NCBI GenBank assembly: GCA_020723285.1 | Contig: DYJE01000001.1 | Location: 373,509-437,508 of the forward strand | Direction of reading: 5' to 3' | DNA from: Desulforapulum autotrophicum | GTDB lineage: Bacteria; Desulfobacterota; Desulfobacteria; Desulfobacterales; Desulfolunaceae | DNA: 64,000 bases | In this document: one piece after another, positions 1,227 through 58,387 of the stretch | Position numbering within the stretch: the stretch's first letter is position 1 | Layout of the letters: each line of letters starts with the position of its first letter | The notes under the pieces: model-generated | What the model was told of the DNA's origin: nothing | What the model saw: the letters and a program-made list of their open reading frames with translations, nothing else | The model's database searches: none | Translations under genes and position numbers: made by a program

Positions 1227-3422
1227 ATGATGAACTCACAAAATTATTCACCATCCGAGCCATGCCATTTCTCCAATGGATTCGAAACATTGTTTGAAAA
1301 CAAGGGAACGGCCGTGATGGTTATCGATGAAGACATGACCATTCTCCGCGTGAACGATATCCTTGAAAAACTATCCGGTTATACTAAAAAGGATATCCTG
1401 AACCAGAAAAACATGACGCGGTTCGTTCACCCCGATGACCTGGACACACTGATTTTTCATCATAAAATCAGACGGATCGATCCGCAAAGCGTACCGTCTG
1501 TCTGTCAGTGTCGCCTGGTTCACAAGGACGAACAGATCAAAACTTACACGCTTCGCGTTTCATTGATCCCCAACACGAAAAAATCCATCATCTCATTCCA
1601 AGACAGCCTTCCAGCCCCTGTGATCCGGCCTCTTAAAACCTCAAAGGCACAGATGTTCCAACTGATGGCCGAAAATACCACGGATCAGGTTTTCATCGCG
1701 GATCTCGACGCCAATATCCTTTACATCAGCCCGTCTGTTGAAAAAATCTCCGGATACACACAGGAAGAATTCAAACTCCTGACCCCCAGGGAATATTTTG
1801 CCCCGGCGTCCTACGAAAAGGCAAAACGGAAAATTCTCAAAGGCATCGAGGGGAGATACGACATCACCCGGCCTTTTCTCACCGAATACGAGATCATCCA
1901 CAAGAACGGAGAGTACAAGTGGATTGAGACCCTTGTCCAATTCATCGTCGACGATCATGGAAAACCGGTGGAAATCACCGGAGCATCCAGGGACATCACG
2001 CGCAAGAAAAAAGCGGAAGAAGACCTGAAAGCCAGCGAAGCCAAATACCGTCAGCTTACCGAAGGTTTGAGGGACGTGGTCCTGGTGGTTCTGCCGGACT
2101 TCACCATCGATTACATCAGTCCCGCAGTGATCGAACTTGGCGGTTACAATCCCGAAGAAATGACCGGACGGCATTTTTCCGATTATTTTGTCTATGAGGA
2201 CGAATACCGGCTGGCCATCACCCTTCTCGAAGACATCATCCGGTATAAGAAACCCACCACCAACCTGGAGTTCCTTTTCAAAGCCAGAAACAAGGACCCG
2301 CTTTACGTTGAAATCACGGCCAAACCCATTGTCAAGGACGATAAAGTTGTTCTGATTCAATGTGTGGCCCGTGATATTTCCGAACGGAAAAAAGCGGAAA
2401 ACGATTTAAAAAAACGCGAAGAACGGCTGAGTTGTGAAAACATGAGTCTCAGGAAATCCATCCGGCAGAGTGGCCGTTTCGCAAACATCATCGGACGGAG
2501 CAAGGCCATGATGGATGTGTACGATCTGCTCCTTAAATCGGCTCCATCCAACCTCAACACCATCATTTACGGAGAGTCGGGTACAGGCAAGGAGCTAGTC
2601 GCCCGGGCCATTCACGACCTCAGCGACAGGAACCGAGGGGCCTTCGTTCCTGTCAACTGCGGAGCCATTGCTGAAAACATCATCGAAAGCGAATTTTTCG
2701 GAGCCTGCAAAGGCGCGTTTACCGGGGCAGAAAGAGACCGGGAAGGCTTTCTGGATCTTGCGGACGGAGGGACCCTTTTTCTCGACGAAATCGGAGAAAT
2801 CGGCCTCAACATGCAGGTGAAACTCCTCCGGGCCATCGAAGGCGGAGGTTACACCCCGGTTGGAAGCAACAAGCTTAAAAAACCGGATATCCGCATTGTT
2901 GCAGCGACGAACCGTGATCTTGTGGAGCATGTGAAAAACCAGAAAATGAGGGCGGATTTCTTCTTCAGGATAAACATTATCCGAATCGATCTGCCGCCTT
3001 TACGTGAACGAAAGGAAGACATCCCCCTTCTTGTCGATCATTTTATAAGGCAGAGTCGTCATATCTCGCCGATCACATGCTTTCCCAAGGATGTCATGGA
3101 TTACATGGTCTCTTACAAATGGCCGGGTAACGTCCGTGAGCTCCAGAACGTGGTGAATCAGTACCTCGCACTGAAACGGATCGTTTTCTCCTCTTTCGGT
3201 CCTGAGAGTGGAGAACGTAATCCCGAGTCCCATACCGCCAACCCACCCTCAGGGACTCTGGCATCCATGGTCAACGATTTTGAACGAAAAATCATTGTTC
3301 AGCAACTGAACGACTGCGGCTGGAACAAAAGCAAAGTAGCTAAATCGCTCAACATTGACCGTAAAACACTGGACACAAAAATTAAAAAATTTAAGATCGA
3401 CTTTAAATCCGAACCGTCATGA
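1227..3422 (+). CDS. PAS-domain sigma-54 dependent transcriptional activator
   Basis: This 731-residue enhancer-binding protein has three N-terminal PAS segments (about 18-125, 141-262 and 267-392); the second and third end in typical PAC strands (ASRDITRKKKAE, ARDISERKKAE). The central AAA+ domain is complete. It has Walker A GESGTGKE at 449-456, the sigma-54 contact loop GAFTGA at 496-501, Walker B LFLDE near 517-521 and WPGNVREL at 632-639. A Fis-type helix-turn-helix lies at about 690-724. There is no receiver domain, so activity is probably set by ligands or redox state sensed by the PAS domains. A -24/-12 promoter and repeated palindromes lie just downstream, ahead of the aconitase X operon. 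I infer that operon is its target. Confidence 0.92.
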   Translation: MMNSQNYSPSEPCHFSNGFETLFENKGTAVMVIDEDMTILRVNDILEKLSGYTKKDILNQKNMTRFVHPDDLDTLIFHHKIRRIDPQSVPSVCQCRLVHKDEQIKTYTLRVSLIPNTKKSIISFQDSLPAPVIRPLKTSKAQMFQLMAENTTDQVFIADLDANILYISPSVEKISGYTQEEFKLLTPREYFAPASYEKAKRKILKGIEGRYDITRPFLTEYEIIHKNGEYKWIETLVQFIVDDHGKPVEITGASRDITRKKKAEEDLKASEAKYRQLTEGLRDVVLVVLPDFTIDYISPAVIELGGYNPEEMTGRHFSDYFVYEDEYRLAITLLEDIIRYKKPTTNLEFLFKARNKDPLYVEITAKPIVKDDKVVLIQCVARDISERKKAENDLKKREERLSCENMSLRKSIRQSGRFANIIGRSKAMMDVYDLLLKSAPSNLNTIIYGESGTGKELVARAIHDLSDRNRGAFVPVNCGAIAENIIESEFFGACKGAFTGAERDREGFLDLADGGTLFLDEIGEIGLNMQVKLLRAIEGGGYTPVGSNKLKKPDIRIVAATNRDLVEHVKNQKMRADFFFRINIIRIDLPPLRERKEDIPLLVDHFIRQSRHISPITCFPKDVMDYMVSYKWPGNVRELQNVVNQYLALKRIVFSSFGPESGERNPESHTANPPSGTLASMVNDFERKIIVQQLNDCGWNKSKVAKSLNIDRKTLDTKIKKFKIDFKSEPS

Positions 3423-3478
3423 TTCAAATCTCCAATCCGCTCAATGTGTACCTCATTGAACACAACAAAACATCAATC

Positions 3479-3584
3479 GTGGAATATTTCCACTTCAGTG
3501 TGGCATTTTTCCACAAATGTCATTATTACTTTTGAATTCAGACTATTGGAAATTTATATCTATTTTTAAGTGGAATAATTCCCC
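3479..3584 (+). promoter_or_regulatory. three enhancer-like sites (candidate UAS for the PAS/sigma-54 activator)
   Basis: Three related 15-bp elements follow the pattern GTGGAA-N3-TTCCAC. Site 1 (3479-3493) is a perfect inverted repeat. Site 2 (3500-3514, GTGGCA-TTT-TTCCAC) has one change. Site 3 (3570-3584, GTGGAA-TAA-TTCCCC) has one changed base. The centres of sites 1 and 2 are 21 bp apart, two helical turns, so both face the same side of the DNA. They lie about 100-200 bp upstream of the -24/-12 promoter at 3665-3680, the usual enhancer distance. Site 3 overlaps another perfect palindrome, TTCCCCATGGGGAA (3579-3592). Confidence 0.6.
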
Positions 3585-3664
3585 ATGGGGAACCTGATTC
3601 TCAGAATAGGTAATTAATGTATTTATATTTTTGATTTTAGCATGTTATTTATTTAATCACACAT

Positions 3665-3680
3665 TGGCACAGCTCCTGCT
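3665..3680 (+). promoter_or_regulatory. sigma-54 (-24/-12) promoter of the aconitase X operon
   Basis: TGGCAC-AGCTC-CTGCT has the exact GG-to-GC spacing of a sigma-54 promoter and matches the consensus TGGCAC-N5-TTGCW at all but one position. It points toward the operon at 4039-7599. Transcription would start near 3692, giving a leader of about 345 bases. The leader contains the hairpin CAGATCCAT/ATGGATCTG (3892-3900 with 3919-3927). Confidence 0.6.
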
Positions 3681-4038
3681 TTTGATGAAACCAAGAAAAC
3701 AGATCAAAGCTCTTCAGGCAAACGGGGCGGGGGAGCAATCTTTATCTATACTATACGTACAAGCAGACGGGTGACCTTAGCCTGTGTCTCGGCTTCTTTC
3801 GGTTCCGCTGCTGCCGGAATGTAATTTATCATTAACGATTCCAGTTTCTGATCAAGACGGGTTCAACCCTTTTCAGCCAGACTGTTCATCACAGATCCAT
3901 CCTTTTTAAGGTCACCTTATGGATCTGGGGCGCAGCCTCTTTCTGACAGTTTTTTGAACCCCCGGTAAAGTTATCATTAATGGATCAACAATAAACTTAC
4001 ATATCAATATATTACAATACGATTGCATGGAGGAACGT

Positions 4039-4800
4039 ATGAAGCGAAACGATTACCACCCCGACCTGTATCTAAAACCCACATTTTTTGTGGACAGCGA
4101 CGCGCCTGAAATCGTCGATTACGCACAGAAGACCTGCAAGGACGTCACGGGCGACAGACAAAAAGCCATCGCCCTGTTCTATGCGGTAAGGGACGATATC
4201 CGTTACGACCTTTTCGGATTTGAAGTCAATCTGAACTACATGAAAGCGAGCTATATTCTAAAAAAACAAAGCGGATACTGCGTTTCCAAAGCACTTGTCC
4301 TTGCCGCAACTGCACGCGCCGCCGGTATTCCGTCGCGTCTGGGCTTCGCCGATGTGATCAACCACCTGAATCCCGGAAAACTCCACGAAATGATGCGAAC
4401 GAATATTTTCGCGTACCATGGTTTCGCTGAGCTTTTCATTGACGGACGATGGATCAAGGCCACACCGTCCCTGGATTCAAGGCTCTGCGAAAAAATGGGG
4501 TATGTGAAACCGGAATTTGACGGCATCCATGACACAGTCTACCCGGAAAAGAATCTCGACGGCGACAGGCATATGGAATACGTGCGCTTTTACGGCAGTT
4601 ACCCCGACCTGCCCATCGAAGATCTGATCAAATCCGTGGAAACGTATTACCCCCATTTCTTTAATGGAAAACGCATCACGGCCCGAATGCTCGCGAAAGT
4701 CCAGAACCTTGATTACGACAACGTGGTTTTATATCAAAATATGCTTCCTGTACCGCCTGAAACACCGAGAGAGCATTATTTCTTTAAAAAAGCCAGCTGA
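4039..4800 (+). CDS. transglutaminase-like (papain-fold) protein
   Basis: This 253-residue cytoplasmic protein has no signal peptide. The core of the transglutaminase-like superfamily is visible. The nucleophile is Cys81 in SGYCVSKALVLAATARAAGIPSR, the catalytic His127 is in AYHGFAELFIDGRW, and Asp146 is in ATPSLDS. Such proteins act as cysteine proteases, amidases or acyltransferases on small or peptide substrates. An in-frame ATG exists at 4027, but GGAGG at 4029-4033 sits 5 bases before the ATG at 4039, so I chose the latter. It is the first gene after the sigma-54 promoter, 150 bases ahead of the aconitase X genes, and is probably co-transcribed with them. Its substrate is unknown. Confidence 0.8.
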   Translation: MKRNDYHPDLYLKPTFFVDSDAPEIVDYAQKTCKDVTGDRQKAIALFYAVRDDIRYDLFGFEVNLNYMKASYILKKQSGYCVSKALVLAATARAAGIPSRLGFADVINHLNPGKLHEMMRTNIFAYHGFAELFIDGRWIKATPSLDSRLCEKMGYVKPEFDGIHDTVYPEKNLDGDRHMEYVRFYGSYPDLPIEDLIKSVETYYPHFFNGKRITARMLAKVQNLDYDNVVLYQNMLPVPPETPREHYFFKKAS

Positions 4801-4950
4801 CAAGCTTCGTTTAAAACCTTAATTCGGGGAATCCTGAACCTGCTTACGAAAGCGCCGCCAACCGGTCTCGGACCGGAACGCCCCCCTTGCGCCATCTGCG
4901 CAGGTCAGGCATTCCCCCAACTTAACACACTCAAACAACAGGTATTCAGA

Positions 4951-6219
4951 ATGTTATTAACAGACAGCGAAAAACGAATGTTAAACGGAGAAGAGGGACC
5001 GGGTGTTCAGAAAGCCATGCAGTTCATCATCGATTACGGAGAGGCCTTCGATGCAAGAAAGCTGGTGGATGTCCACAGCGCCCATATCCTCCAGGACCCC
5101 CTTGAAATGCTTGAAGGACTTTCAAGCGGGGTAAAACATGTTAGACCCCTGACCACGCTCCACTCCAATCCCCCGCTGGGAACCCGCTGGGCGGACAAAC
5201 TGGGGCTCTCCATGGAAGACGCCGGTCCGGTCATCGAAAACAACGCCAGGGTTCTTGATGTGTATAAAAGCCTGGGTTGCCTGATGACCCTGACCTGCGC
5301 CCCCTATGTCATGGGGAATATCCTGAAAAAAAACCAGGTCTTTTCTTGGGCGGGGTCATCCGGTGTGATCATCAACAACTCCCTGTTCGGAGCCAGGGGT
5401 AACCGTGACTCAGGGCTCGCCATGACCGCCAGTGCCATTACGGGTAAAGCCCCGGAAATCGGACGGATCAGGAATGATGGAAGACTGGGGGACATTCTGT
5501 TCCGCTTCCAGAAAGTGGAGCTGGATAAACTCACCCAGGCGGACCTTGGGGCCATGGGCTACCATATCGGAGCCATGGCCCAGACAAAGAACGTGGTAAT
5601 TGAAGGACTTCCGGATACCCTACCCTTTGAAATGCTCAAGTATCTCCTGTCACCCATGCCTGTTTCAGGAGCTGTCAGCCTCTGTCATATCGTGGGCCTC
5701 ACACCTGAAGCACCCGATGTGGCTAAGGCTTTCGGAAACAGGAAACCAGAAATGGAACTGACCATCACTCCCGATGATATTAAAAACGGTGCCGAACAGC
5801 TCTGCGGATATGAATCCAACGACGTGGAGGTGGTCATGATGGGCTGTCCCCATCTCACCATTCGTGAACTCAGGGAAATCGCGGCACTGCTTGAAGGCAG
5901 GAAAGTATCGGGCAACACCCGGCTGTTTCTTGCCACCAACGAAGGCGTCTCTGAACTGGCCCGGCGCATGGGGTATCTTGAGATCATCGAAAAAGCGGGG
6001 GGGCTTGTCATCACCGATTCGTGCATCGCCGTCTTTCCTTTTGCGAAAATGAAAACACATGTCAGCCGGGCAGCCACAAATTCGGCCCGATGCGCACATT
6101 ATCTGCTTCGAGGCGGTGCCGGAGAAATTGTGGGTGGAAAAGTGATGCAGACATATTACGGAGAAACTGCGCGGTGCATTCGCGCCGCCATAACAGGAAC
6201 ATGGGAGGACGCATCATGA
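4951..6219 (+). CDS. aconitase X catalytic (large) subunit, DUF521 family
   Basis: This 422-residue protein matches the aconitase X large domain over its whole length. Recognisable motifs are LTTLHSNPP, TCAPYVMGN (Cys116), WAGSSGVIINNSLFGARGNR, MGCPHLTIRE (Cys299), ITDSCIAVFPF (Cys358) and SARCAHYL (Cys381). The cysteines are candidates for iron-sulfur cluster ligands and the active site. Characterised aconitase X enzymes dehydrate cis-3-hydroxy-L-proline in bacteria or mevalonate 5-phosphate in archaea. Here the neighbours fit neither pathway: no proline reductase or isoprenoid gene is present. Its stop overlaps the ATG of the small subunit (ATGA at 6216-6219), which suggests translational coupling. 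Dehydratase activity is a family inference; the substrate is open. Confidence 0.88.
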   Translation: MLLTDSEKRMLNGEEGPGVQKAMQFIIDYGEAFDARKLVDVHSAHILQDPLEMLEGLSSGVKHVRPLTTLHSNPPLGTRWADKLGLSMEDAGPVIENNARVLDVYKSLGCLMTLTCAPYVMGNILKKNQVFSWAGSSGVIINNSLFGARGNRDSGLAMTASAITGKAPEIGRIRNDGRLGDILFRFQKVELDKLTQADLGAMGYHIGAMAQTKNVVIEGLPDTLPFEMLKYLLSPMPVSGAVSLCHIVGLTPEAPDVAKAFGNRKPEMELTITPDDIKNGAEQLCGYESNDVEVVMMGCPHLTIRELREIAALLEGRKVSGNTRLFLATNEGVSELARRMGYLEIIEKAGGLVITDSCIAVFPFAKMKTHVSRAATNSARCAHYLLRGGAGEIVGGKVMQTYYGETARCIRAAITGTWEDAS

Positions 6220-6632
6220 TGATCAAAGGACACACCATCCAGCCCGGTGTTGTGGAAGGCGAAGCGGTTGTTTCAAACATGCCGTTCTCATTTCTCGGGG
6301 ATTTCGACATCACAAGCGGCCTTGTCAACGAACGCCATGAACTGGCAGGTGAAAGCATCGCCGGAAAAATCCTTGTCTTTCCTTCAGGACGCGGATCGAC
6401 AACAGGAGCCCTTGTGGGCTACTACGCCAAAATGTTCAACACAGCCCCGGCCGGCATGATCTGCCGTGAGGCGGAGCCGGTGATCGCGCTGAACGCCTTG
6501 AGCAACCGAATCCCCATGGTGGACCGGACAGATCAGGACCCGATATCAGCCATCAGGACCGGAGACCGCATCCTGCTCGACGCCACTCAGGGCCTTATTA
6601 CCATTCTTACACAAAATACCAACAAGGAGTAA
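6216..6632 (+). CDS. aconitase X swivel (small) subunit, DUF126 family
   Basis: This 138-residue protein is the swivelling beta-barrel domain that closes the active site of aconitase X. The signature segment LVFPSGRGSTTGALVGYYAK holds the conserved Ser and Arg of the swivel domain. It is followed by PAGMICREAEPVIALNA and IPMVDR. The reading frame stays open further upstream, but GGGAGG at 6203-6208, 7 bases before the ATG at 6216, and the 4-base overlap with the large subunit fix the start. Separate large and small subunits match the two-gene type of aconitase X. The MaoC-like gene follows after 4 bases. Confidence 0.88.
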   Translation: MMIKGHTIQPGVVEGEAVVSNMPFSFLGDFDITSGLVNERHELAGESIAGKILVFPSGRGSTTGALVGYYAKMFNTAPAGMICREAEPVIALNALSNRIPMVDRTDQDPISAIRTGDRILLDATQGLITILTQNTNKE

Positions 6633-6636
6633 CACC

Positions 6637-7599
6637 ATGGACCACAAATTCAAATTTTTCTCATCGATGATTTTCAGCCGCAAAGTGATGGGCACCATCT
6701 TCGGCAAACAGGAATTCACGCTTCCCGAAGCCATCAACGGAATCTATATCCCCAGGAATCATCAGTTCCAGTTGTCGGACAGTTATCGTGACGAATGGAA
6801 CAACCTGTTGACCACCCGTCATCACCGGGGCGTTCTTCCCTATTCCTATTACTGGCCCTGGATGATGGATTACACCATGAAAAACCTTCTCCCGGACCTT
6901 GGCATCGCCCTTAAGAACGTCCTTCACCTGGGTCACGAAGCTCGGATCGGTGAAGATTTTGAATCGATTCGCCAGAACATGAGCGTTCTGAAAAACAGGC
7001 TCGTGGACCTCTGCGCCCTCAGCAAAAACAAGATCGTTCTGGTCACCGAAACAGCCATCGAGGATGAAAAAGGAAAGGTTCTCTATCTGGCCAGAGATTT
7101 CACCGTGATTCTGAACATGAAATCCCATGAAATGGACATGCTTAAGAACACGCCGGTCTGGGACCATGAAGAAGTCCCGTTCCGGACAGAAAGTTTCAGA
7201 ACCCGGGCATCGCAATTCCGGGATGACCGGAATGCCCGGCGGAAATCTTTCTATTGCAACGCAGACCTCGCCAACAGATTCGGAAGCGTGGCCGGTGCCT
7301 TGAGTGTGACCCATGCGTCGGTTCTGACGGCGAAGATCTTCAGACAGGGCAAAGTGTTCCTGCAGGGGATGTGTACCGCCAACATCGTGCTCAAAATACT
7401 CTGCGATGAACTGAGCGAGGATGTCTCTAACTTCAGCATCTACTTCACCAACCAGCTCCCCTTTCCCCAGCGGATCGAGGTCCGGTTCGATGACACGGTG
7501 TTCGAAGTTTTCGATGAGTCGAACACCATGGTGGCCTACGGCCAAAGAGTCAACCGCCATGTCGCCGCAGCGTCCGTCATCCGGAAAAAAGCGGCCTGA
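6637..7599 (+). CDS. MaoC-like double hotdog protein, possibly acyl dehydratase
   Basis: The 320 residues have the layout of two hotdog folds. An N-terminal half of about 160 residues contains RGVLPYSYYWPWMMDYTM. A C-terminal half contains FGSVAGALSVTHASVLTAKIF and FLQGMCTANIV, which correspond to the MaoC hydratase signature (usually GDxNPxH and HGM). His226 is kept, but the catalytic Asp position reads Ala and the HG of the second motif reads QG. It may therefore bind an acyl group without classic hydratase chemistry, or use other residues. It is the last gene of the operon, 4 bases after the aconitase X small subunit, with a good Shine-Dalgarno (AAGGAG). The role is inferred from fold and context only. 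Confidence 0.65.
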   Translation: MDHKFKFFSSMIFSRKVMGTIFGKQEFTLPEAINGIYIPRNHQFQLSDSYRDEWNNLLTTRHHRGVLPYSYYWPWMMDYTMKNLLPDLGIALKNVLHLGHEARIGEDFESIRQNMSVLKNRLVDLCALSKNKIVLVTETAIEDEKGKVLYLARDFTVILNMKSHEMDMLKNTPVWDHEEVPFRTESFRTRASQFRDDRNARRKSFYCNADLANRFGSVAGALSVTHASVLTAKIFRQGKVFLQGMCTANIVLKILCDELSEDVSNFSIYFTNQLPFPQRIEVRFDDTVFEVFDESNTMVAYGQRVNRHVAAASVIRKKAA

Positions 7600-7675
7600 C
7601 CGAAACCGTGCCTGGCACTGAAGCCGCCCCCCCCTCCTGTGATCCGCCTGACCGGCTGAACCCAGGCACAAAAAA

Positions 7676-7697
7676 GCCCCGGACCACTGTCCGGGGC
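7676..7697 (-). terminator. Rho-independent terminator of the lipoprotein gene
   Basis: GCCCCGGAC (7676-7684) and GTCCGGGGC (7689-7697) form a perfect 9-bp stem with a 4-base loop. Read on the minus strand it is followed by six T, so it ends transcription coming from 8322. It may also block read-through from the convergent aconitase X operon. Confidence 0.85.
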
Positions 7698-7728
7698 TAT
7701 CACCTTTCATGCAATCAATCATCGTCTG

Positions 7729-8322
7729 TCAGTGCGAAGGATTCTTCTCAAAGGTCTTCACATAGGAAACACCCGCATCCTCTTTGACAAAGACGTTAAA
7801 ACTGTTCTCACCCTTGGGCATGGTTTCAAGAAACGTCAGGGGAATCATTCCTTTCTGATCTGTTTTTACATGTTTGACCTCGGTGCTGGCAGGAAACTGG
7901 ATAATCAGATCCTCGTCCGGAGCAAAGGCAAGATTGCCGCAGACGATCAGGTCAGATCCTTTCACATACCCACCGTCCGTTTCTTCCACGGTAGCCCTTG
8001 TAAAAACACCGGCCAGCACGAGATCAGCGATGCCCAGACCGAAAAAAGGAATCTCCACCATGGCCGGAATAACGCCATGGAGCTGTTTCCTTTTCACGTT
8101 GATGACCTTGATATCCTGAGAACAGAGCGGCTCTTTCTGGAGAAGCAGATGATCTTTCCCCTCGCTCATCACATAATGGAAAGCCACCTGAGTCCCCTGT
8201 TTCGCCTCTGCGTGACGGGTTTCTTCGACGGGCGGATAAGCCACCGTCAGAACCGTGGCGCATCCGCTTGTCCAAAGGCAGCTTAAAGCAACGATCAACA
8301 TAGTAAGAGTTCTGTAGTTCAT
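7729..8322 (-). CDS. predicted lipoprotein of unknown function
   Basis: The 197-residue product starts MNYRTLTMLIVALSCLW and has the lipobox TSGC, giving an acylated Cys near residue 21. A short hydrophobic stretch, IPFFGLGIADLVLAGVF, lies in the middle and may touch the membrane. I do not recognise a named domain. The frame is open to an ATG at 8343, but the ATG at 8322 has a ribosome site (AGGATAA) and gives a proper signal peptide. It is followed by its own strong terminator, and the PstS-like gene lies 48 bases upstream on the same strand. Confidence 0.7.
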   Translation of the reverse strand: MNYRTLTMLIVALSCLWTSGCATVLTVAYPPVEETRHAEAKQGTQVAFHYVMSEGKDHLLLQKEPLCSQDIKVINVKRKQLHGVIPAMVEIPFFGLGIADLVLAGVFTRATVEETDGGYVKGSDLIVCGNLAFAPDEDLIIQFPASTEVKHVKTDQKGMIPLTFLETMPKGENSFNVFVKEDAGVSYVKTFEKNPSH

Positions 8323-9328: not shown

Positions 9329-10069
9329 TTATTCTCCTTCGGTCACACCGGAATCAACAATCACTGAAACACGTCTGTTGCGCGCACGTCCCTCTTCCAG
9401 ATGGTTTGATTCCACAGGCTTCTGATCTGCGTAACCCACCACGGTCAGTCGTGATGGCTCCACACCGCTGTCGATGAAAAGACGAACCACACTGCTGGCC
9501 CGTGCTGAAGACAGTTCCCAATTTGAAGGGTAAACCGAGGTGCTGATGGGCGTGTCATCGGTATGGCCCTCGATCACGATTTTATTGGGTTTCTTTTTGA
9601 GTTTTTCTGCCACGGATTGCATGATCGCCGCCGGTTTTTCTCCAAGGGCCGCCTCTCCGGCATTGAAAAGAACTCCGGCGTTGATATCCACCGTAACCCC
9701 CTTACGGCTGATTTTCACCCGGACCTGCCCTTCCTTCACCAGGTTATCCATGACAGACAAAATATCGTTGGCGATCTCACGCATACGTTCGTCAAAAACC
9801 GTATACCCCTCCGTGGTGGCCCCATCTTTTCGGAATGTTTCATAATTGCCGGAATTAAATTCCATGATGGTGTCCCCGGTGTACATGCCCGCCTGATTCT
9901 TGTTGAACGCCTCGACCATGGAGTTGCTTAAAACCCTGTATTTCCCTTCATTCACCGACGATATGGCGTACATGACCACGAAAAACGCAAAAAGGAGGGT
10001 GATAAAGTCGGCGTAGGAAACAAGCCACCGCTCATGGTTTTCATGCTCTTCCGGTTTCTTTTTTTTCAC
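9329..10069 (-). CDS. motB: flagellar motor stator protein MotB (OmpA-like C-terminus)
   Basis: The 246 residues show the MotB layout. There is a short basic cytoplasmic N-terminus, then one membrane helix, WLVSYADFITLLFAFFVVMY, with the proton-path Asp at residue 21. A linker is followed by an OmpA-like peptidoglycan-binding domain (about 125-240) with VIEGHTDDTPI and NWELSSARASSVV. MotB anchors the stator to the cell wall and works with MotA. The motA gene lies 15 bases upstream on the same strand. No other flagellar genes are in the window, so whether the pair serves the flagellum or gliding cannot be decided here. Confidence 0.88.
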   Translation of the reverse strand: MKKKKPEEHENHERWLVSYADFITLLFAFFVVMYAISSVNEGKYRVLSNSMVEAFNKNQAGMYTGDTIMEFNSGNYETFRKDGATTEGYTVFDERMREIANDILSVMDNLVKEGQVRVKISRKGVTVDINAGVLFNAGEAALGEKPAAIMQSVAEKLKKKPNKIVIEGHTDDTPISTSVYPSNWELSSARASSVVRLFIDSGVEPSRLTVVGYADQKPVESNHLEEGRARNRRVSVIVDSGVTEGE

Positions 10070-10084
10070 GGCGGCCCTCTTTGC

Positions 10085-10837
10085 CTAAACGATATAGGCT
10101 TCCAGCTTTTTTTCGATATTCTTGGGGTTGTCGCCGTTTGAAATGGAACAGAGCCCCTCGATGGTCATTTCCATCAGCGTCACCTGCCGGGCGATGATGG
10201 TTTTAAGCTTGTTGGCCACAGGAAGAAAAATCATGTTGGCCGATCCCACACCGTAAATCGTGGCCACAAAGGCCACGGCAATGCCGCCGCCAAGCTTGGC
10301 CGGATCGGACAGGTTTTCCATGACATGAATCAAACCGAGAACAGCTCCCAATATCCCGATGGTGGGTGCGTAGCCCCCGGCCCCTTCCCAGATTTTAGCG
10401 GCCTGGCGCATGTGTTCATCGTATGCTGCGATTTCGATGCCCAGATCCGTCCGAATCCGGTCGGGTTCGGCACCGTCCACCACCATCTGAAGCCCTTTCC
10501 GGCAGAACAGGTCCTCAACACTGTCAATCCGTGAGTCCAGTTCGAGAATTCCGTATTTCCGCGCCGTCAGGCTCCAGTTGATGATGTCTTTGATGATGTC
10601 GGAATAAGGAACAAGGGGGGGAACGAACACCCATTTCATCAGTTTCATGCCCAGGATGAACGTGGGCATGCGGGTCTGAACCATAACCGCACCCATGGTG
10701 CCTCCAATGACAATCAGCACCGGGGTGAAGTGAAGCAAAGATCCCACATGCCCCCCCTCCAGAATCTGACCCACAAGGATGGCTCCAAGGGCCAGCACCA
10801 GTCCGGCAACGCTTATAAAATCAATTCGTTTGAACAT
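10085..10837 (-). CDS. motA: flagellar motor stator protein MotA
   Basis: The 250-residue inner-membrane protein has four hydrophobic segments: about 7-25, 33-50, 147-170 and 180-205. It has the MotA/TolQ/ExbB signature GGYAPTIGILGAVLGLIHVMENLSDPAKLGGGIAVAFVATIYGVG. It forms the ion channel of the stator with MotB, encoded directly downstream. Its upstream region carries a perfect 14-bp palindrome at 10861-10874. The length is slightly below classical MotA (about 285) but typical of this subfamily. Confidence 0.88.
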   Translation of the reverse strand: MFKRIDFISVAGLVLALGAILVGQILEGGHVGSLLHFTPVLIVIGGTMGAVMVQTRMPTFILGMKLMKWVFVPPLVPYSDIIKDIINWSLTARKYGILELDSRIDSVEDLFCRKGLQMVVDGAEPDRIRTDLGIEIAAYDEHMRQAAKIWEGAGGYAPTIGILGAVLGLIHVMENLSDPAKLGGGIAVAFVATIYGVGSANMIFLPVANKLKTIIARQVTLMEMTIEGLCSISNGDNPKNIEKKLEAYIV

Positions 10838-10860
10838 GAGCCCCCCGACAGGATGTCTCG

Positions 10861-10874
10861 ATGAAACGTTTCAT
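10861..10874 (-). promoter_or_regulatory. perfect palindrome upstream of motA
   Basis: ATGAAACGTTTCAT reads the same on both strands and lies 24 bases upstream of the motA start. It is a strong operator candidate for a dimeric regulator, but the regulator is not identified. Confidence 0.4.
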
Positions 10875-11029
10875 GAAAACACTACGAATAAATGATTGAT
10901 CCAAATGATCAAAAGGCGAGCGATGATTTTTCGAATGATAACCTGTACATTCAGTTTGGCGTTATTTTATCTGACACAGGATTCAAAATCAAGATGAGTC
11001 TCTATCCGGGTGAAGGATTGATGGTAAAC

Positions 11030-11060
11030 CCAGGGCGCTGTAGGATATCCAGCGCCCTGG
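11030..11060 (-). terminator. long hairpin downstream of the TRAP operon, likely terminator
   Basis: CCAGGGCGCTG (11030-11040) pairs perfectly with CAGCGCCCTGG (11050-11060), an 11-bp GC-rich stem with a 9-base loop, 25 bases after the dctM stop. The T-tract on the minus side is weak, so it may act partly as an mRNA-stabilising hairpin. Confidence 0.6.
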
Positions 11061-11084
11061 AATTTCTTTCATACCATGGCCGGA

Positions 11085-12389
11085 TTAACCGGTCATGAGC
11101 GAAGGTAAAAACAGGGCAAGCTGCGGAAACAGGATCAAAATGAAGGTAATCAGAATGATGGCGAAAAGCAGCGGCATGGCTCCCTTGAATATCGTCTCAA
11201 GGGGTACGTCCGTGGCCACGGTCTGGACCACGTAGACATTGAGTCCCACAGGAGGTGTGATCACGCCCATCTGGGTTACGAGAACAATGATCACCCCGAA
11301 CCACACACTGTCAAATCCCATGGATGTCACCACCGGATAAAAAATCGGCACCGTCAGCATGATCAAGGCCAGGGCATCGATAAAGCACCCGCCAATCAGA
11401 TACACAAGGATGATCAGTGACATAATGACAAAATGAGGAAGTTCCAGATGACCGACCATCTGCGCGATATCGAAGGGCAGCCGGGTCAGGGCGAGAAAAT
11501 GACCGAAAATCGTGGCACCCGCGACGATCACAAGAATCATGGCTGTAATCCGGGTGGTTTCGAACAACGCCTCCCTGACCCCCTTGAACGTGATGTTCCG
11601 CTGCACGAGGGCGATGACAAGGGTTCCCATGGCCCCCACACCGCCGGCTTCCGTGGGGGTAAAAAGCCCGCCGAAAAGCCCACCCATGACCAGAATGAAC
11701 AGGAGAAGGGTTTCCATGACGCCCGAAAGGGCCTTCATTTTTTCTCTGAACGTGAAACGCGGACCACGCGGGGCGACTTCAGGATCCATGATGGCCCAGA
11801 TCATCACCACCGCCATGAACAAAAGAGTGAGAACGACGCCAGGCAAAACCCCAGCCACAAACAGTTTCCCGATGCTCTGTTCGGTCATGATGCCGTAAAG
11901 GATAAAAATCACGCTGGGTGGGATCAGAATGCCCAGACTTCCTCCGGCGGCCACCACGCCGGTGGCGATGCTGTCCTTGTATCCGTATTTCTTCATTTCC
12001 GGCAACGTCACCGAAGCCATGGTGGCCGCCGTGGCATTGGTGGAACCGCAGATGGCGGAAAAACCGGCACAGGCCCCGATGGTGGCGATGGCCATGCCTC
12101 CGGGCCAGTGGCCGATCATCTTATATGCCATGTTGAACAGCCGTGAACTGATCCCCGCATGAAACGCCAGCTGCCCCATGAGGATAAACAGAGGGATCAC
12201 CGTGAGGTTGTAAGAGCCGAACACGTCGAACACGTCTTTGACCATCATGCTCATGGCCGCGTCCACATTGGCGATTAAAGAAAAACCAACCACCCCCACA
12301 AGGGCCATGACGAATCCCACGGGAATCCGCGAAAAAATCAGGATGAACAAAGCGGCGATGCCGAGGACACCCATAAGGGTCATAGACAT
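11085..12389 (-). CDS. dctM: TRAP transporter large permease subunit (DctM family)
   Basis: The 434-residue protein is almost entirely hydrophobic, with about 12 membrane helices. It shows the family's glycine-rich loops: FSAICGSTNATAATM, GGSLGILIPPSVIFILYG and TPTEAGGVGAMG. In TRAP systems this subunit moves the substrate, driven by a sodium or proton gradient, after delivery by the periplasmic DctP protein. It overlaps the dctQ gene by 10 bases and forms an operon dctP-dctQ-dctM read leftward. The substrate is probably an organic acid, but the genes nearby do not narrow it. Confidence 0.92.
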   Translation of the reverse strand: MSMTLMGVLGIAALFILIFSRIPVGFVMALVGVVGFSLIANVDAAMSMMVKDVFDVFGSYNLTVIPLFILMGQLAFHAGISSRLFNMAYKMIGHWPGGMAIATIGACAGFSAICGSTNATAATMASVTLPEMKKYGYKDSIATGVVAAGGSLGILIPPSVIFILYGIMTEQSIGKLFVAGVLPGVVLTLLFMAVVMIWAIMDPEVAPRGPRFTFREKMKALSGVMETLLLFILVMGGLFGGLFTPTEAGGVGAMGTLVIALVQRNITFKGVREALFETTRITAMILVIVAGATIFGHFLALTRLPFDIAQMVGHLELPHFVIMSLIILVYLIGGCFIDALALIMLTVPIFYPVVTSMGFDSVWFGVIIVLVTQMGVITPPVGLNVYVVQTVATDVPLETIFKGAMPLLFAIILITFILILFPQLALFLPSLMTG

Positions 12390-12904
12390 TTTTCACCTCC
12401 GTTTTCCATCTCTTTCAAACCGGCCGTCGATGTGAATGACAGCAGAAAATGAAGCAGGCAGACAAGAAAAAGAAGGCCGAAGCTAACGGAAATACCCATA
12501 ATGAACGGGTAAAACGGAACCTGAAGGGTCATGGATCCTTCGGCGTTGGCTTTTGACGACAGGGCCAGCATAAACGAATGCCATGAAATCAGGGCAAACA
12601 GCACGGCCAGGATGACATCATTCACCCGTTCAACCCAGTTACGGACGTTTTCCGAAAGTTTCCTGACGATAAAATCCACGGCGATGTGGCCTTTCTCCAG
12701 CGTGGTCTGGGCCAGGGCAAAGGACACGGCCACCGCCCCTGAAAGTCCCACCAGTTCAAAGGTGCCTGTGAGCGGATGGCGAAAATACCTCAAAAAAACA
12801 TCGGCGCAGGTGATGGACATCATAAAGAACACAGCCACTGCGGCGATACCGTTCATGCCCTTTGAAAGGGCATGAACGAAACGGTGCGCTTTATTCAAAA
12901 ACAT
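12380..12904 (-). CDS. dctQ: TRAP transporter small permease subunit (DctQ family)
   Basis: The 174-residue protein has four membrane helices, starting at about residues 20, 50, 95 and 135. It carries the family segment MSITCADVFLRYFRHPLTGTFELVGLSGAVAV and LEKGHIAVDFI. It pairs with the DctM subunit encoded directly downstream. Its start abuts the stop of dctP at 12904, a one-base overlap that indicates tight coupling. Confidence 0.9.
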   Translation of the reverse strand: MFLNKAHRFVHALSKGMNGIAAVAVFFMMSITCADVFLRYFRHPLTGTFELVGLSGAVAVSFALAQTTLEKGHIAVDFIVRKLSENVRNWVERVNDVILAVLFALISWHSFMLALSSKANAEGSMTLQVPFYPFIMGISVSFGLLFLVCLLHFLLSFTSTAGLKEMENGGEKCL

Positions 12905-13923
12905 TACTTTTTCCCCTTGATCAGACTCTTCAAAGTCGCCACGCAGGCTTTGCCGTCGATGCCTTTTTTACCTGCCTCTGCGACATATTCACTGATCACG
13001 GGCTCAACAGCCTTGACCCAGACTTCACTTTCCTTGGATGAAAGAGTAACCAGACCATTTTTCAGACTTTTGCTGAATTCCAGTCCCTGCTTGTCCGCAG
13101 CATCCCATTCCTTTCCGTGAACGTCCGCCCATTCGCTGCTGACCTGGGTAAACACCTTTTTCAGGTCTTCGGGAAGGGCTTCCCATTTTTTCTTGTTCAT
13201 CACCACAAACATGGTGGTGGTGTAGCCCACGTCATTGCAGTCCGTGGTGGATTTGATCACTTCCCCCTGACGCCAGCCCTTGAGAACCTCTACCGGACCG
13301 ATGGTGCCTTCGACCACGCCTTTCTGAAGGGCTTCATACGTTTCACCCTGTTCCATGGCCACGGGAACCGCGCCAAGGGCCGAGACCACTTTGGCACTGA
13401 GACCTGTGGAACGGATTTTCATGCTTTTAAGGTCAGCCAGGGTTTTCACAGGTTTTTTCGTATGAAGAAGGCCTGGACCATGGGCGTGAAGGTAAAGGAC
13501 TTTCACGTCAGACAGTTCTTTGGGCTGCATTTTTTTGTAATAGGCGTTAACAGCCTTTGTCGCCACCATGCCGTTGGGGTAGCCCAGGGGAAGGTCTGCG
13601 GCTTCCATCACAGGAAAACGGCCGCGGGTGTATGCGAAGCAGCTCATGCCGATATCGGATATCCCGGTGACCACCCCGTCATAACAGGTGTTGGCCTTGG
13701 TCAGGGTGCCGCCCGGGAACACGTTGATGGTCACCCGGCCCTTGCTCCGTTTCTCGATTTCTTTTGCCCAGCTTTCAGCCGCCTTGCACTGGCCGTGGGT
13801 CGGAGGAAAAAAAACGCTGTAGGACAACTTGACGGATGAATCCGCCGCAGATGCAGTTGAAGAACATACACCCAAAATCCAAAAACTTGCCGCAACAGAT
13901 AATAACCATGTGATTCGTTTCAT
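12904..13923 (-). CDS. dctP: TRAP transporter substrate-binding protein (DctP family)
   Basis: The 339-residue protein has a Sec signal peptide, with cleavage after about TASAA near residue 27. The mature part follows the DctP fold: [23 protein letters not shown] and [25 protein letters not shown]. The segment [23 protein letters not shown] contains the conserved Arg that contacts a carboxylate. It is the first gene of the TRAP operon. The family preference for carboxylates is known; the specific ligand here is not. Confidence 0.92.
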
Positions 13924-15255: not shown

Positions 15256-16317
15256 TCAGAAGCTGAACCCTAAGGTCATGGAACCGTATTTCAATGGATT
15301 TTTCTGGGCTTCATGAATTTTCGTCCCCCTGACCATGACGAGGGAGGCCCACACACCTTTGAACCCGAATCCCAGCCCGCCAAACACATCGCCGCAAAAA
15401 GGCACCCTTTCAAGCTCCGGCCCTTCTTTGAATGTATTTCCGTCAACGATCATGGAATGCAGGACATATGAAATTTCAATCCCTCCCATCAGATTGATAA
15501 GGAAGGGGTATCTTCGGTCATAGTCGATATCGGGGATAAAACCCACCCCGCCTTTGTAAGGAGCCGAAGGGTATCTATTCGCCCCGTTGCCGATACGGAA
15601 AATAGCCCCGACGTCCACATCGGTCAGCAGATTTCCGGCATCCCCACCGGTATAACCTGTGAGATCCCAACCCGGCTCGCGTCCGTTCAATGGCGTCAGA
15701 GTGTCGAATATTTTCCATTTGTTAACATAGCTGACGTTCAATATCGGTTCGTCCTTGAGCTGATACTTCCAACCCTTGGGCCTTGTCACGCCAATCATTT
15801 TATGAATGGCTTTCTGGGATTCTTCACCACGGGCACAGGGGCCGACAACACCCACCAGAGCCCCGAATGAATCGGATGTCTTTTCGTTCTGATACTGGAC
15901 CATCATTTTGGCTGTCAAAAAAGCTGCATAGGGGAGTTCATCGCTCGGGGGGATCTCTTTTTCAATATCATCCGGCGTGATGAGTGTCTGGCCAAATGCA
16001 AAAGAAACACGTCGTTCACGGTTTATGTTTTCAACCTGGGTCATGGAATCTGTTAATCGATGCAGCAAACCCAGACGCTTCGCATCTTCTCCATCAGAGT
16101 CCGGTTTCTCCCAAGGCAGGGATAAAGCGGCGAACAGGCCGCTGGTATAGGCCCTGTCCGTATCCATAAAGGAGTCGTTCTCAAAAATGACGGCAAAGGA
16201 GTAACGGTATCCGGCAGAGGACTGGCTTTCTGCCCAGGCTGATTCAAAGGGTTGAAAAAAAACTGAGGCTGCACCCATGAGCATAAACATCCATACAGCC
16301 TTGCCTTTTCCGATCAT
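15256..16317 (-). CDS. LpxR-like lipid A deacylase, outer membrane beta-barrel (DUF2219)
   Basis: The 353-residue precursor has a signal peptide ending near AWA-ES (residue 29). The LpxR/DUF2219 signature is FENDSF at 45-50 and TDRAYTSG at 53-60, where the conserved Asn, Asp and Ser of the active site lie. The protein ends in SMTLGFSF; a C-terminal Phe is the usual outer-membrane barrel signal. LpxR removes the 3'-acyloxyacyl chain of lipid A, changing outer-membrane charge and immune recognition. Whether this homologue has the same substrate is inferred only. It stands alone and converges with murI. Confidence 0.8.
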   Translation of the reverse strand: MIGKGKAVWMFMLMGAASVFFQPFESAWAESQSSAGYRYSFAVIFENDSFMDTDRAYTSGLFAALSLPWEKPDSDGEDAKRLGLLHRLTDSMTQVENINRERRVSFAFGQTLITPDDIEKEIPPSDELPYAAFLTAKMMVQYQNEKTSDSFGALVGVVGPCARGEESQKAIHKMIGVTRPKGWKYQLKDEPILNVSYVNKWKIFDTLTPLNGREPGWDLTGYTGGDAGNLLTDVDVGAIFRIGNGANRYPSAPYKGGVGFIPDIDYDRRYPFLINLMGGIEISYVLHSMIVDGNTFKEGPELERVPFCGDVFGGLGFGFKGVWASLVMVRGTKIHEAQKNPLKYGSMTLGFSF

Positions 16318-26063: not shown

Positions 26064-27866
26064 CTATTTGGTTCCGAAAGCGTCTTCGCTGATTTCGACC
26101 ACCGCGCCGTTCATGTTTTTAATGGCGTTCAGGCGGCCTTCGGTGATGAACAGGGTGTTGTTGACGAAGAATTCACAGGTCTTGATCTGGCCTTCGTAGA
26201 AAGCGGCGTCTTTGCCTTTGGCTTTGGCAAGGGCATCGGAAGCCACTGCGGCTCTCCAGAGAAGCATCCAGGCCATGGTCAGATCGCCGGTGGCGGTCAG
26301 AAGAGGATGGCTCTGGGCGAACGCGTTGAGCACTTTTTCGCCCATGGCGGCTTTGGCGATTTCGCCCACCACTTCCGTATAAAGGGTGTAGGTTTTTTCA
26401 GCTTTGGCGGCCATGGCTTCGAGACCCTGGATGCCTTTGGCTTTGTCAATGGCTTCCTTGATTCTTCCCAGGAATCCCATGAAAGGTTTGCCTTTGTTCA
26501 TTCCGATTTTCCGGCCTAGAAGGTCCATGCTCTGAATACCGTTGGTGCCTTCGTAAATCTGGAAAATCCGGCTGTCACGGAGAAGCTGCTCCACCGGAAA
26601 ATCCTTGCAGAAACCGTAACCGCCGTAAACCTGTACGCCGTGGCTGCAGACTTCGTTAGCTTTGTCGGTGACGTAGCCTTTGATAATGGGCGTTAAAATT
26701 TCAAGAAGTTCGCTGTATTCCGCTTTTTCAGCAGCGTCTTTGGCCAGTTTCACGCGGTCATGGCACATGCCTGAGAAGTAGATCAGACTTCTTATACCTT
26801 CCACCATGGATTTCATTTCAAGCAACTGACGGCGAACGTCGGGATGCTGAATGATGGGAACACCGCCGTCCTGGGGTTTCAACATGTTGGCACCCTGAAT
26901 ACGTTCGCGGGCATAGGCCAGAGCGTGCATGTAGGACGTGGTGGCCACGGCAAAGCCCTGGAGACCCACGAGCTGGCGGGCGTCATTCATCATGATGAAC
27001 ATGGAGCGCATGCCTTTGTTTTCTTCACCCAGAAGAGTACCGATACATTTGCCTGCGCCGCCCAGGGTGAGGGAACAGGTGGCACTGCCGTTGATACCCA
27101 TTTTGTGTTCGATACCGGTGCAGACCACATCGTTGAACTCGCCAAGGCTTCCGTCGGCGTTCACTCTGAATTTGGGAACAAGGAACAGTGAAATCCCGCG
27201 CGTACCTGCGGGTGCTCCTTTGATACGGGCGAGAACGGGATGGACGATGTTTTCCGTCATGTTCTGCTCACCGCCGGAGATGAAGATCTTGTTACCCACG
27301 ATGCTGTAGGTGCCGTCGGCATTTTTTTCCGCGACGGTTTCAAGGGCTCCAACGTCCGAACCCGCACAGGCTTCGGTGAGAAGCATGGTGCCGGCCCATT
27401 TACCGGAGTACAGGTTTTTAAGGTAGAGTTTTTTCTGTTCGTCGTCGCCGATTTCCTCGATCATCTTGGCGGCCCCGTGGGTCAGACCGTGGTACAGCAT
27501 GAACGCCACGTTGGCACCCTGGAAATACTCACTTGCGGCAAGTGCCACAGTCTTGGGCATTCCGCCGCCGCCCCATTTGGGATCGTCGCTCATTCCCAGC
27601 CATTCACCTTCCATGAAAAGATCCCAGGGTCGTTTGAAGCATTCGGGCAGAGTCACCTGCCCGCCTTCGAACACGCAGCCTTCGTCGCTGGGCTGCTGGG
27701 TCGGCATGATTTCTTTGATAGCCAGTGAACGTGCTTCGGATACAATCATGTCCACCGTTTTTTTGTTGAAATCCGCGAAAAGATCGTTTTCCGTCAGCTG
27801 AGTCACATTGAGTTGTTCATGAAGAACAAAGTCCACATCACGTCGGTCGGCAATTGGTTGTGCCAT
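26064..27866 (-). CDS. acyl-CoA dehydrogenase, long form
   Basis: The 600-residue flavoenzyme oxidises acyl-CoA to enoyl-CoA, passing electrons to ETF. It shows MLLTEACAGSDVG in the FAD-binding middle domain. GLQGFAVATTSYMHALAYARERIQG and VQVYGGYGFCKDFPVEQLLRDSRIFQIYEGTNGIQ carry the C-terminal helices with the catalytic glutamate. The extra about 150 C-terminal residues (VVGEIAKAAMG onwards) are typical of the roughly 600-residue class. It is transcribed alone, with a strong terminator. No other beta-oxidation gene is close, although the SDR at 29726-30520 might belong to the same metabolism. Confidence 0.93.
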   Translation of the reverse strand: MAQPIADRRDVDFVLHEQLNVTQLTENDLFADFNKKTVDMIVSEARSLAIKEIMPTQQPSDEGCVFEGGQVTLPECFKRPWDLFMEGEWLGMSDDPKWGGGGMPKTVALAASEYFQGANVAFMLYHGLTHGAAKMIEEIGDDEQKKLYLKNLYSGKWAGTMLLTEACAGSDVGALETVAEKNADGTYSIVGNKIFISGGEQNMTENIVHPVLARIKGAPAGTRGISLFLVPKFRVNADGSLGEFNDVVCTGIEHKMGINGSATCSLTLGGAGKCIGTLLGEENKGMRSMFIMMNDARQLVGLQGFAVATTSYMHALAYARERIQGANMLKPQDGGVPIIQHPDVRRQLLEMKSMVEGIRSLIYFSGMCHDRVKLAKDAAEKAEYSELLEILTPIIKGYVTDKANEVCSHGVQVYGGYGFCKDFPVEQLLRDSRIFQIYEGTNGIQSMDLLGRKIGMNKGKPFMGFLGRIKEAIDKAKGIQGLEAMAAKAEKTYTLYTEVVGEIAKAAMGEKVLNAFAQSHPLLTATGDLTMAWMLLWRAAVASDALAKAKGKDAAFYEGQIKTCEFFVNNTLFITEGRLNAIKNMNGAVVEISEDAFGTK

Positions 27867-40178: not shown

Positions 40179-41786
40179 CTATTGTAACGAGGCTGGCGGG
40201 CTGCATTCCAAATTTGAGTAAAGATCCATCTGCCGCTTTGTGATTTCGCCAATGTGTAAATCCCGCCCCGGGACGTTAAAACATTCAATGGTGTCGAGTT
40301 CATCCAGGATGTCTTGGAGGGTATGGTCTTTGAACAGGTTGTTTTCATGCATTTTACGAGTGATGAAAGATAAGAAGATGAGAGAGATAAATTGCACGAA
40401 GAGTTTTCCATCCAGGCTTTGTTCTGATGAAACGACCAATCGCCTTAAATTCAATCGCTCTTTCAGGTTGTCGAAGGCTTTTTCAACCAGATCCTTGTTC
40501 CTGTAAACAGCAAGAGCTTCGGCAGCGTCTTTTATCTCGTTGCTGAAAAGACAGAAATAGCCGTAATTGCGCTTTGCTTCGGCCAGGGCATCTTCTTTGG
40601 CAATCACCTTCAAACCTCGAACCGGTGTGTTTTTTACATCAAAATATTTTAAATACTGTGTCTCATGATCAGGCCTGCGTTGGCCGCTTTCCAATTCCCC
40701 CTGCAACACAGTAAGCCAGCTGTTGAAGGCTTTTTCGTCTTCCAACGCTCTTTCCGGGGAAAAGTAGAGGTGAAGATACAATCGACGATCAGCCTTGATC
40801 GTATCACCTTTATAGGGACGATCCCGACTGTAATCCCATGTCACCGGAAGAGAATGCATATAGAGCTGATAGGTCTGGTTGTAGGAGGACCAGGTGCGCA
40901 TCGTGTCCCGAACCGTATCAAGGTTTGTCTGAACGAGTTTCAACGATAGTTTTGCGGCAATCAAGAACTTCATGTGGTTCTTGTATAGGTCGTTGATATT
41001 GGCTGCACTGAAGAAACCACGATCCAAAACGACCTTGATTTTCTCATATCCCAACGTATTCATGTCAACCAGAAGCTTGCGCAGGGTTTTCACATCAGGA
41101 ATGTTTCCGGAAAGCTTTCGGTAATAAAACGGAAGGCGGGAATGCTGCCCAAAAAGCAGGGATAGGTTGATCTGTGTCAGGGGTTCATGATCCTTGTTTT
41201 TACCGTAGCGGACCTGCCGGAGGCATTTTGAATAACTGGAAACAGACGTGCTGTCATAGGCGAGGTACTCGCGGTCCACACGGCGTTTTCCCTGAAGATG
41301 AAAGAATCGCTGCCGGGCATCTTCAGTAATAGATGCAAAGAGTTCGCTGCTCCGCTGAGAGGGGATAACGTCGCCATGGGGATGGCGGTGGAGAGCCGCC
41401 CATCTGGGAAAGCGACTCAAAGGGTTCCTATCCTCAAGAATCAGGTAATAGACAATTGACAGAATCTGAAGGTAGGTATTGGGAAAACATTTCTTCAGAT
41501 CCTCCGTCACTCCGGTCTCTGCCCCGATCTGATCAAAAAGGTATGTGGCTCCGTAAAAGCAGCGGGATGCGGGTTTGATAGACACAGAGCCCCGATCTGT
41601 TTTTTCAATAACGGCAGACAAGGCCTTCTTTCTTGTCGGAATGATCTGATTCGTTTCAGGATCGACTCGCCCGATACATACACGTTTTGCTCGGGACTGT
41701 TGCTTTTCCTTATCCCAATGCGAAATGGATTTGTAAGCATAAATAACGCCGGATTTTTTATTGGTCTGATAGACGATTGCAGCCAT
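40179..41786 (-). CDS. IS1634/IS4 family DDE transposase
   Basis: The 535-residue protein has the features of long IS4-superfamily transposases. An early domain carries YGATYLFDQIGAETGV. The first Asp is in YDSTSVSSYSK and the second in VVLDRGFFSAANI. The YREK-type glutamate is in KDLVEKAFDNLKERLNLRRL. AAGGAGG precedes ATG 41786; the frame is open to 41864 across the repeat region. The gene appears intact, so the element may still be active. Confidence 0.88.
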   Translation of the reverse strand: MAAIVYQTNKKSGVIYAYKSISHWDKEKQQSRAKRVCIGRVDPETNQIIPTRKKALSAVIEKTDRGSVSIKPASRCFYGATYLFDQIGAETGVTEDLKKCFPNTYLQILSIVYYLILEDRNPLSRFPRWAALHRHPHGDVIPSQRSSELFASITEDARQRFFHLQGKRRVDREYLAYDSTSVSSYSKCLRQVRYGKNKDHEPLTQINLSLLFGQHSRLPFYYRKLSGNIPDVKTLRKLLVDMNTLGYEKIKVVLDRGFFSAANINDLYKNHMKFLIAAKLSLKLVQTNLDTVRDTMRTWSSYNQTYQLYMHSLPVTWDYSRDRPYKGDTIKADRRLYLHLYFSPERALEDEKAFNSWLTVLQGELESGQRRPDHETQYLKYFDVKNTPVRGLKVIAKEDALAEAKRNYGYFCLFSNEIKDAAEALAVYRNKDLVEKAFDNLKERLNLRRLVVSSEQSLDGKLFVQFISLIFLSFITRKMHENNLFKDHTLQDILDELDTIECFNVPGRDLHIGEITKRQMDLYSNLECSPPASLQ

Positions 41787-41805
41787 TACAACCCCTCCTT
41801 TCATC

Positions 41806-58385: not shown

Positions 58386-58387
58386 AA

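Follow-up and report, generated by a model that had tools for sequence, protein, structure and literature searches.

The 64,000-nucleotide stretch of Desulforapulum autotrophicum DNA analysed here (the window; assembly GCA_020723285.1, contig DYJE01000001.1, positions 373,509 to 437,508 of the forward strand) encodes a two-subunit aconitase X (AcnX) between a transglutaminase-like protein (TGL) and a MaoC-like protein. Sequence comparison supports the view that the active site of this AcnX fits neither known substrate of the family, cis-3-hydroxy-L-proline or mevalonate 5-phosphate, so that the enzyme probably acts on a compound not yet linked to AcnX. In the reading that we favour, with a probability of about 0.45, the genes form a sigma-54-induced catabolic operon in which AcnX processes a carboxylate distinct from both known substrates and TGL frees this acid from a conjugate. 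The four genes occupy positions 4039–7599 of the plus strand; all four open reading frames (ORFs) called by an initial annotation of this DNA were found in the order it gave, with matching Pfam families for the first three (Table 1).

The residues expected for cluster binding and catalysis are present in the window AcnX. When aligned with the archaeal type IIb enzyme TkAcnX (residue roles in TkAcnX and AtAcnX follow the sections of PMC8184944 that describe them), Cys116, Cys299 and Cys358 of the large subunit occupy the columns of the cluster cysteines Cys110, Cys283 and Cys342, Ser136 and Tyr384 match the carboxylate-binding Ser130 and Tyr365, and the small subunit retains the general-base serine (Ser61), followed by Thr62-Thr63. 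The large subunit departs from TkAcnX in having Gly135 for Glu129, Arg380 for Lys361 and His71 for Asn79, as well as a shortened stretch at the phosphate loop (residues 48–53). Thus, the set that binds mevalonate 5-phosphate in type IIb (Gly48-Val49-Ser50, Asn53, Asn79 and Lys361) is not found, in a loop whose alignment is ambiguous. The landmarks of the hydroxyproline enzyme AtAcnX are missing as well: its hydroxyproline landmark columns read Leu, Leu and gap, with leucine in place of both Asp203 and Trp35, and Glu292 and Lys530 are also not kept. The passage of PMC10040528 that treats the exchanged glutamate calls it highly conserved throughout the AcnX enzymes and also cites complete inactivation of a type I enzyme upon its change; the residue is glycine in the window AcnX and in 5/5 of its closest relatives. 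The suggestion of a new AcnX substrate in the initial annotation has gained support, though not proof, from an active site that matches neither known one; an acyl, peptide or hydroxy-acid conjugate, its more specific proposal, is a candidate at most.

Phylogenetic analysis points to a variant within AcnX type II, whose Gly/Ser clade is set apart from both characterised types. The nearest relatives are found in four genomes of the source family, at 65–68% identity (G298–G301, namely Desulfoluna limicola, D. spongiiphila, D. butyratoxydans and a Desulfoluna metagenome-assembled genome; loci L066–L069), followed by a Desulfobacterales metagenome-assembled genome of the source order at 55% (G344; locus L070). 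Together with the window genome, these five make up the six core genomes referred to below. Two trees were built by quick searches from sequences of at least 330 residues. The 91-row tree groups 22 sequences (20 with Gly, 2 with Ser) with a support of 97, away from AtAcnX and TkAcnX. Another sequence with Gly (L031) does not belong to this clade; it is a long, distant branch that pairs with L030 (Asp), and Gly thus occurs at least once more. A 52-row tree computed under a mixture model, which left out 39 rows (37 with Glu, L030 and L031), likewise has a branch (support 96) that parts the 22 Gly/Ser rows from all others, and it unites the window AcnX and its five relatives in a subclade (support 100); since this selection omitted the exception L031, the 91-row tree is the fuller statement. 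Used alone as a query over the genome collection, the large subunit retrieved no relative, and an alignment query did. The source genome (5.44 Mb, 97% complete) yielded a single AcnX match, and a search of it for an AcnX paralogue found none.

The placement of a papain-fold or transglutaminase-like partner beside AcnX by the initial annotation is borne out across genera. Six of the 19 TGL rows, those linked to AcnX, form a subclade of their own (support 100); its members are 59–64% identical to the window TGL, all other listed copies reaching at most 48%. This subclade is present in 6/6 core genomes, and in five of them, the window genome and the four Desulfoluna, it lies directly upstream of AcnX. 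G344 carries its copy on a different contig from AcnX, with the MaoC-like gene coming directly after it. Genomes without a core AcnX (the 117 others of the phylum sample and 8 more) hold TGL copies of at most 48% identity or none, and a paralogue in the window genome (contig C73) is 37% identical and belongs outside the subclade. Two genomes of the genus Desulfoluna without an AcnX match, G302 (87% complete) and G303 (93% complete), also lack the TGL subclade, one having no TGL match and the other a match of 40%. Across 67 AcnX loci outside the core (16 non-core Gly/Ser loci and 51 others), neither the window TGL nor the MaoC-like protein found a match. Transglutaminase-like proteins use a triad whose third residue is Asp. 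Cys81, His127 and a TP motif are invariant in 19/19 aligned TGL sequences, as is Thr142, which by motif would stand at the third-triad place. For comparison with ordinary TGL contexts, 20 regions were fetched, and the TGL ORF was called in 15 of them; no neighbour family is common to more than 3 of 21 TGL regions apart from TGL itself and one ORF family, probably TGL in antisense, that occurs in four regions where TGL was not called.

The promoter region is organised in a manner consistent with induction. A PAS-domain sigma-54 activator is encoded upstream on the same strand and is probably the operon's regulator; 4/4 Desulfoluna loci have an activator of this cluster ahead of the operon. Two palindromes and a −24/−12 sigma-54 promoter-like site lie between the activator and TGL in the window (Table 1). 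The corresponding gap of the Desulfoluna loci holds one or two GGAAN1-5TTCC elements (4/4), against a background of 15 across all 64 kb of the window (an expectation of 0.14 per 600 bp), and the best sigma-54 sites in these gaps score 10–12 (4/4), against 12 sites scoring at least 10 on both strands of the 64 kb (about 0.05 per 500 bp per strand). Two of the gaps (L046 and L047) have a second score-10 match, which covers the ribosome-binding region of the gene that follows and is likely due to chance. A sigma-70 scan of positions 3400–7800 gave 4 promoter-like sites, no excess over the shuffle mean of 4.0, and Rfam had no match in the same range.

The claim that the four genes are co-transcribed is plausible from their spacing and fares best for the last three: the AcnX large and small genes overlap (6219 versus 6216) and the MaoC-like gene starts four bases after AcnX small, whereas 150 bp separate TGL from AcnX large. 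The TGL ORF is open from 4027, and its start was set at the ATG at 4039 because GGAGG (4029–4033) stands before that codon. A Pfam scan of 29 window proteins, a subset of all ORFs (9 including the four genes, plus 10 and 10), found no family of proline or isoprenoid pathways, in agreement with the initial annotation. Proline genes beside orthologues, named there as a possible counter-indication, did not appear at the two Desulfoluna loci (of four) that were scanned, where none of 10 proteins fell into a proline family. PADLOC gave no match for any of the four proteins.

The MaoC-like protein is the least constant member of the set. Its proposed identity as a double-hotdog partner retains a weak PF01575 likeness and is a weak call because the score is below the cut-off (Table 1); as a partner, it was found in only 2/6 core genomes. 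These are the window genome and G344, the only two among 389 genomes of the order, and beyond the window genome none was found in 297 phylum genomes or in 8 genomes of the family. The G344 relative is 53–54% identical, with PF01575 at 2.6e-4 and 21 bits, also below the cut-off of 27. MaoC hydratases carry a GDxNPxH active-site motif. Both members found read GALSVTH at this place (residues 220–226 of the window protein), keeping the His and replacing the Asp by Ala. Genes that follow AcnX small in G344 cannot be read because the contig ends 194 bases after it.

Taken together, we propose that a sulfate reducer of the Desulfoluna family carries here an inducible operon for catabolism. It would be switched on from the −24/−12 site when the PAS/sigma-54 activator senses a small molecule. 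The Cys-His TGL may then act ahead of AcnX, most likely by cleaving an amide or ester conjugate to release the free acid, as its family and co-occurrence suggest. The AcnX heterodimer, with a cluster resembling that of type IIb, would dehydrate (or hydrate) a small hydroxy-carboxylate different from both cis-3-hydroxy-L-proline and mevalonate 5-phosphate; with the base Ser, the Ser/Tyr pair and the three cysteines kept, the Glu-to-Gly and Lys-to-Arg changes would, by alignment, reshape the pocket around the hydroxyl. The MaoC-like protein, apparently without the usual hydratase Asp, may be an optional accessory. We more tentatively consider a more specific version, a third AcnX activity: a bacterial type II enzyme with room for a bulkier acid, fed by TGL as a dedicated Cys-His amidase. 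The lost Glu and the new His and Arg would give this room, and the pathway would be one that marine sulfate reducers induce through sigma-54. The acid might be a hydroxy-dicarboxylate, or else a hydroxy-acid that is N-acylated or stems from a peptide and is chelated on the cluster.

Several observations weigh against this proposal. The loop at 47–53 and the Asn79 column are ambiguous, the phmmer pairing of this stretch differing from that of MAFFT, and the G344 small subunit has Thr instead of the base Ser. In the same part of PMC10040528, a Glu-to-Ala mutant of the archaeal ApPMDh retains 76% of its activity, so that Gly alone does not prove another substrate. Because four of the six core genomes belong to one genus, they count as approximately three lineages. 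In G344, neither the 1127 bp before TGL nor the 642 bp before AcnX contain a sigma-54 site scoring at least 10 or a GGAA-TTCC palindrome. The TGL family as such occurs in 46 of 118 sampled phylum genomes (the window's included) in varied contexts, and the MaoC-like protein was not found in the four Desulfoluna. Sequence and profile searches against the PDB returned only insignificant matches for TGL, two of them transglutaminase-like (E 0.045 and 0.17), and none for the MaoC-like protein, and AlphaFold2 models of TGL with four relatives (pLDDT 38.9) and of the MaoC-like protein alone (pLDDT 35.5) were unusable.

The neighbourhoods of AcnX in other genomes bear on what the enzyme might otherwise do. 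Within about 10 kb, the 16 non-core Gly/Ser-clade loci contain DctM in 9, DctP in 10, a UxaA-SAF pair in 6 and an acyl-CoA ligase in 3, compared with 9, 3, 0 and 0 in the 51 other AcnX loci (49 typed Glu and two not typed). UbiD, which should accompany the archaeal enzymes and hence serves as a positive control, lies near AcnX in 11/51 other loci versus 0/16 non-core Gly/Ser loci, and in none of the 21 Gly/Ser-clade loci; absences in these counts are soft because several loci are short contig pieces. As TRAP and UxaA-SAF genes are frequent at the non-core loci, the Gly/Ser clade may act on imported hydroxy-acids, with the core group having TGL instead. It is accordingly conceivable, if rather unlikely, that the window AcnX resembles its outer clade relatives in dehydrating a hydroxy-acid or sugar acid, with TGL and the MaoC-like protein outside its reaction path. 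The window does contain a TRAP operon (11085–13923), though on the opposite strand and behind other genes; the five core loci, one of which ends at a contig end, gave no UxaA or TRAP match, and a TGL subclade that tracks the core AcnX in every core genome speaks against a bystander role.

TGL could also work in the opposite direction, since some of its homologues form amides. An operon that makes or modifies an acyl-amide, with an acyl thioester bound by the MaoC-like protein and AcnX preparing or finishing the acyl part, would agree with the acyl-CoA ligase-like genes near AcnX at three non-core clade loci; we regard it as improbable, since the 29 scanned window proteins include no carrier protein, ligase or synthetase, although the window has an acyl-CoA dehydrogenase (26064–27866), and since no MaoC-like protein was found in 4/6 core genomes. 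Activity on hydroxyproline appears very improbable. The NCBIfam cis-3-hydroxyproline dehydratase model NF051439 does match the large subunit at 3.9e-53, but with 180.7 bits against a cut-off of 700 (AcnX small scores 51.1 bits in the NCBIfam comparison), and PrdR, the best NCBIfam match of the activator, is likewise well below cut-off (357.7 versus 795). A further hint in this direction, and a weak one against our proposal, is an enolase-superfamily gene divergent from AcnX in G344 (L050:2487–3653), whose product scores 35.6 bits against the enolase-type cis-3-hydroxyproline dehydratase model (cut-off 500). Set against these are the absent Asp203, Trp35, Glu292 and Lys530 of AtAcnX, a best proline racemase score of just 21.2 bits in the window genome (cut-off 27) and no match to the ornithine-cyclodeaminase family in the 21 clade loci tested.

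For a peptide substrate, as raised by the initial annotation, only weak context was found. Among NCBIfam models, the G344 enolase-superfamily protein scores best with o-succinylbenzoate synthase and N-acetyl-Glu racemase, followed at a lower score by dipeptide epimerase; each of these scores falls far short of its cut-off. The four Desulfoluna carry an M28-peptidase-family gene between activator and TGL, the product of which has an N-terminus that looks secreted. M28 homologues occur in all 6 core genomes, those of the window genome (51%) and G344 (47%) lying off-operon; none was found in G302 or G303 and a partial one (37%) in G297. The window-genome copy was considered as part of the operon set and not counted because it is nearer to second, non-operon copies (57–58%). 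The 700 bp upstream of four copies of this non-operon type contain no GGAA-TTCC palindrome and no sigma-54 site scoring at least 10. An M28-family homologue adjoins a GMC oxidoreductase gene on contig C70 of the window genome (L204:2094–5304).

Other features of AcnX loci were also recorded. At L071, L073, L074, L077, L082 and L096, AcnX stands beside a UxaA-like and SAF pair and TRAP genes; five of these six loci, and also L072, have Gly (GGT) for the base Ser in the small subunit. At L073 the small subunit read keeps the Ser and possibly stems from a second copy of AcnX. Two large-subunit genes lie at this locus (5605–6864 and 10001–11254). Among the non-Gly/Ser loci, 14/51 have a trimethylamine methyltransferase-like gene (MTTB) nearby (e.g., L087, L091, L100, L111 and L121) and 8/51 an aromatic amino acid lyase, which hints at methylated amine or betaine catabolism. 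The DctM of the window shares 53–58% identity with TRAP genes that adjoin AcnX or lie in its vicinity at L059, L184 and L186. Further window genes are listed in Table 1.

Table 1. Features of the window, with supporting matches
Feature	Position	Strand	Evidence or remark
PAS-domain sigma-54 activator: three PAS stretches, AAA+, Fis-type helix-turn-helix	1227-3422	+	PF00158 4.2e-61; PF02954 9.8e-12
Palindrome GTGGAATATTTCCAC	3479-3493		GGAA-TTCC type, possible activator site
Second palindrome GGAATAATTCC	3572-3582		GGAA-TTCC type, possible activator site
-24/-12 sigma-54 promoter-like site TTGGCACAGCTCCTGCT	3664-3680	+	12/13 scored positions
TGL (transglutaminase-like protein)	4039-4800	+	PF01841 4.6e-14, 53 bits, cut-off 23
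AcnX large subunit	4951-6219	+	PF04412 2.6e-98, 329.8 bits, cut-off 31.5
AcnX small subunit, swivel domain	6216-6632	+	PF01989 7.4e-25, 87 bits, cut-off 27
MaoC-like protein, 320 aa, possibly double hotdog	6637-7599	+	PF01575 0.0018, 18.3 bits, below cut-off 27
TRAP transporter DctMQP	11085-13923	-	
LpxR-like outer-membrane protein gene	15256-16317		
Acyl-CoA dehydrogenase gene	26064-27866		
DDE transposase	40179-41864		
Phage tail genes (tape measure, tail protein)	54791-60925		close to window end

The operon offers a concrete entry to the function of bacterial AcnX outside the two known substrates; close relatives exist in three named Desulfoluna species, and the linked partner, regulator and promoter provide handles for finding the inducer. 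No title or abstract on a Gly-type AcnX or on a TGL-AcnX operon was found in the one literature collection searched. Compared with the widespread PF01841 family, the AcnX-linked TGL shares the Cys, the His and the TP motif and differs by a longer C-terminus and a YDLFG stretch. The window AcnX resembles the archaeal phosphomevalonate dehydratase of type IIb (TkAcnX, 7CNR/7CNS; ApPMDh) in its large and small subunits, three cluster cysteines, base Ser and carboxylate-binding Ser and Tyr, but has Gly, Arg and His for the Glu, Lys and Asn79, lacks the phosphate loop and belongs to a clade with no UbiD match at the 21 loci tested. With AtAcnX it shares the family fold, as judged by sequence, and a Thr at the Thr72 position, whereas type I is a single chain with a cysteine ligand at 510 and the window enzyme consists of two subunits without the four AtAcnX landmark residues. 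The sections of PMC8184944 and PMC10040528 on AcnX types name two substrates and give no known function for bacterial types IIc–IIf. The window AcnX is like these types in being bacterial, two-subunit and devoid of the landmark residues for either substrate, as the relevant part of PMC8184944 describes them.

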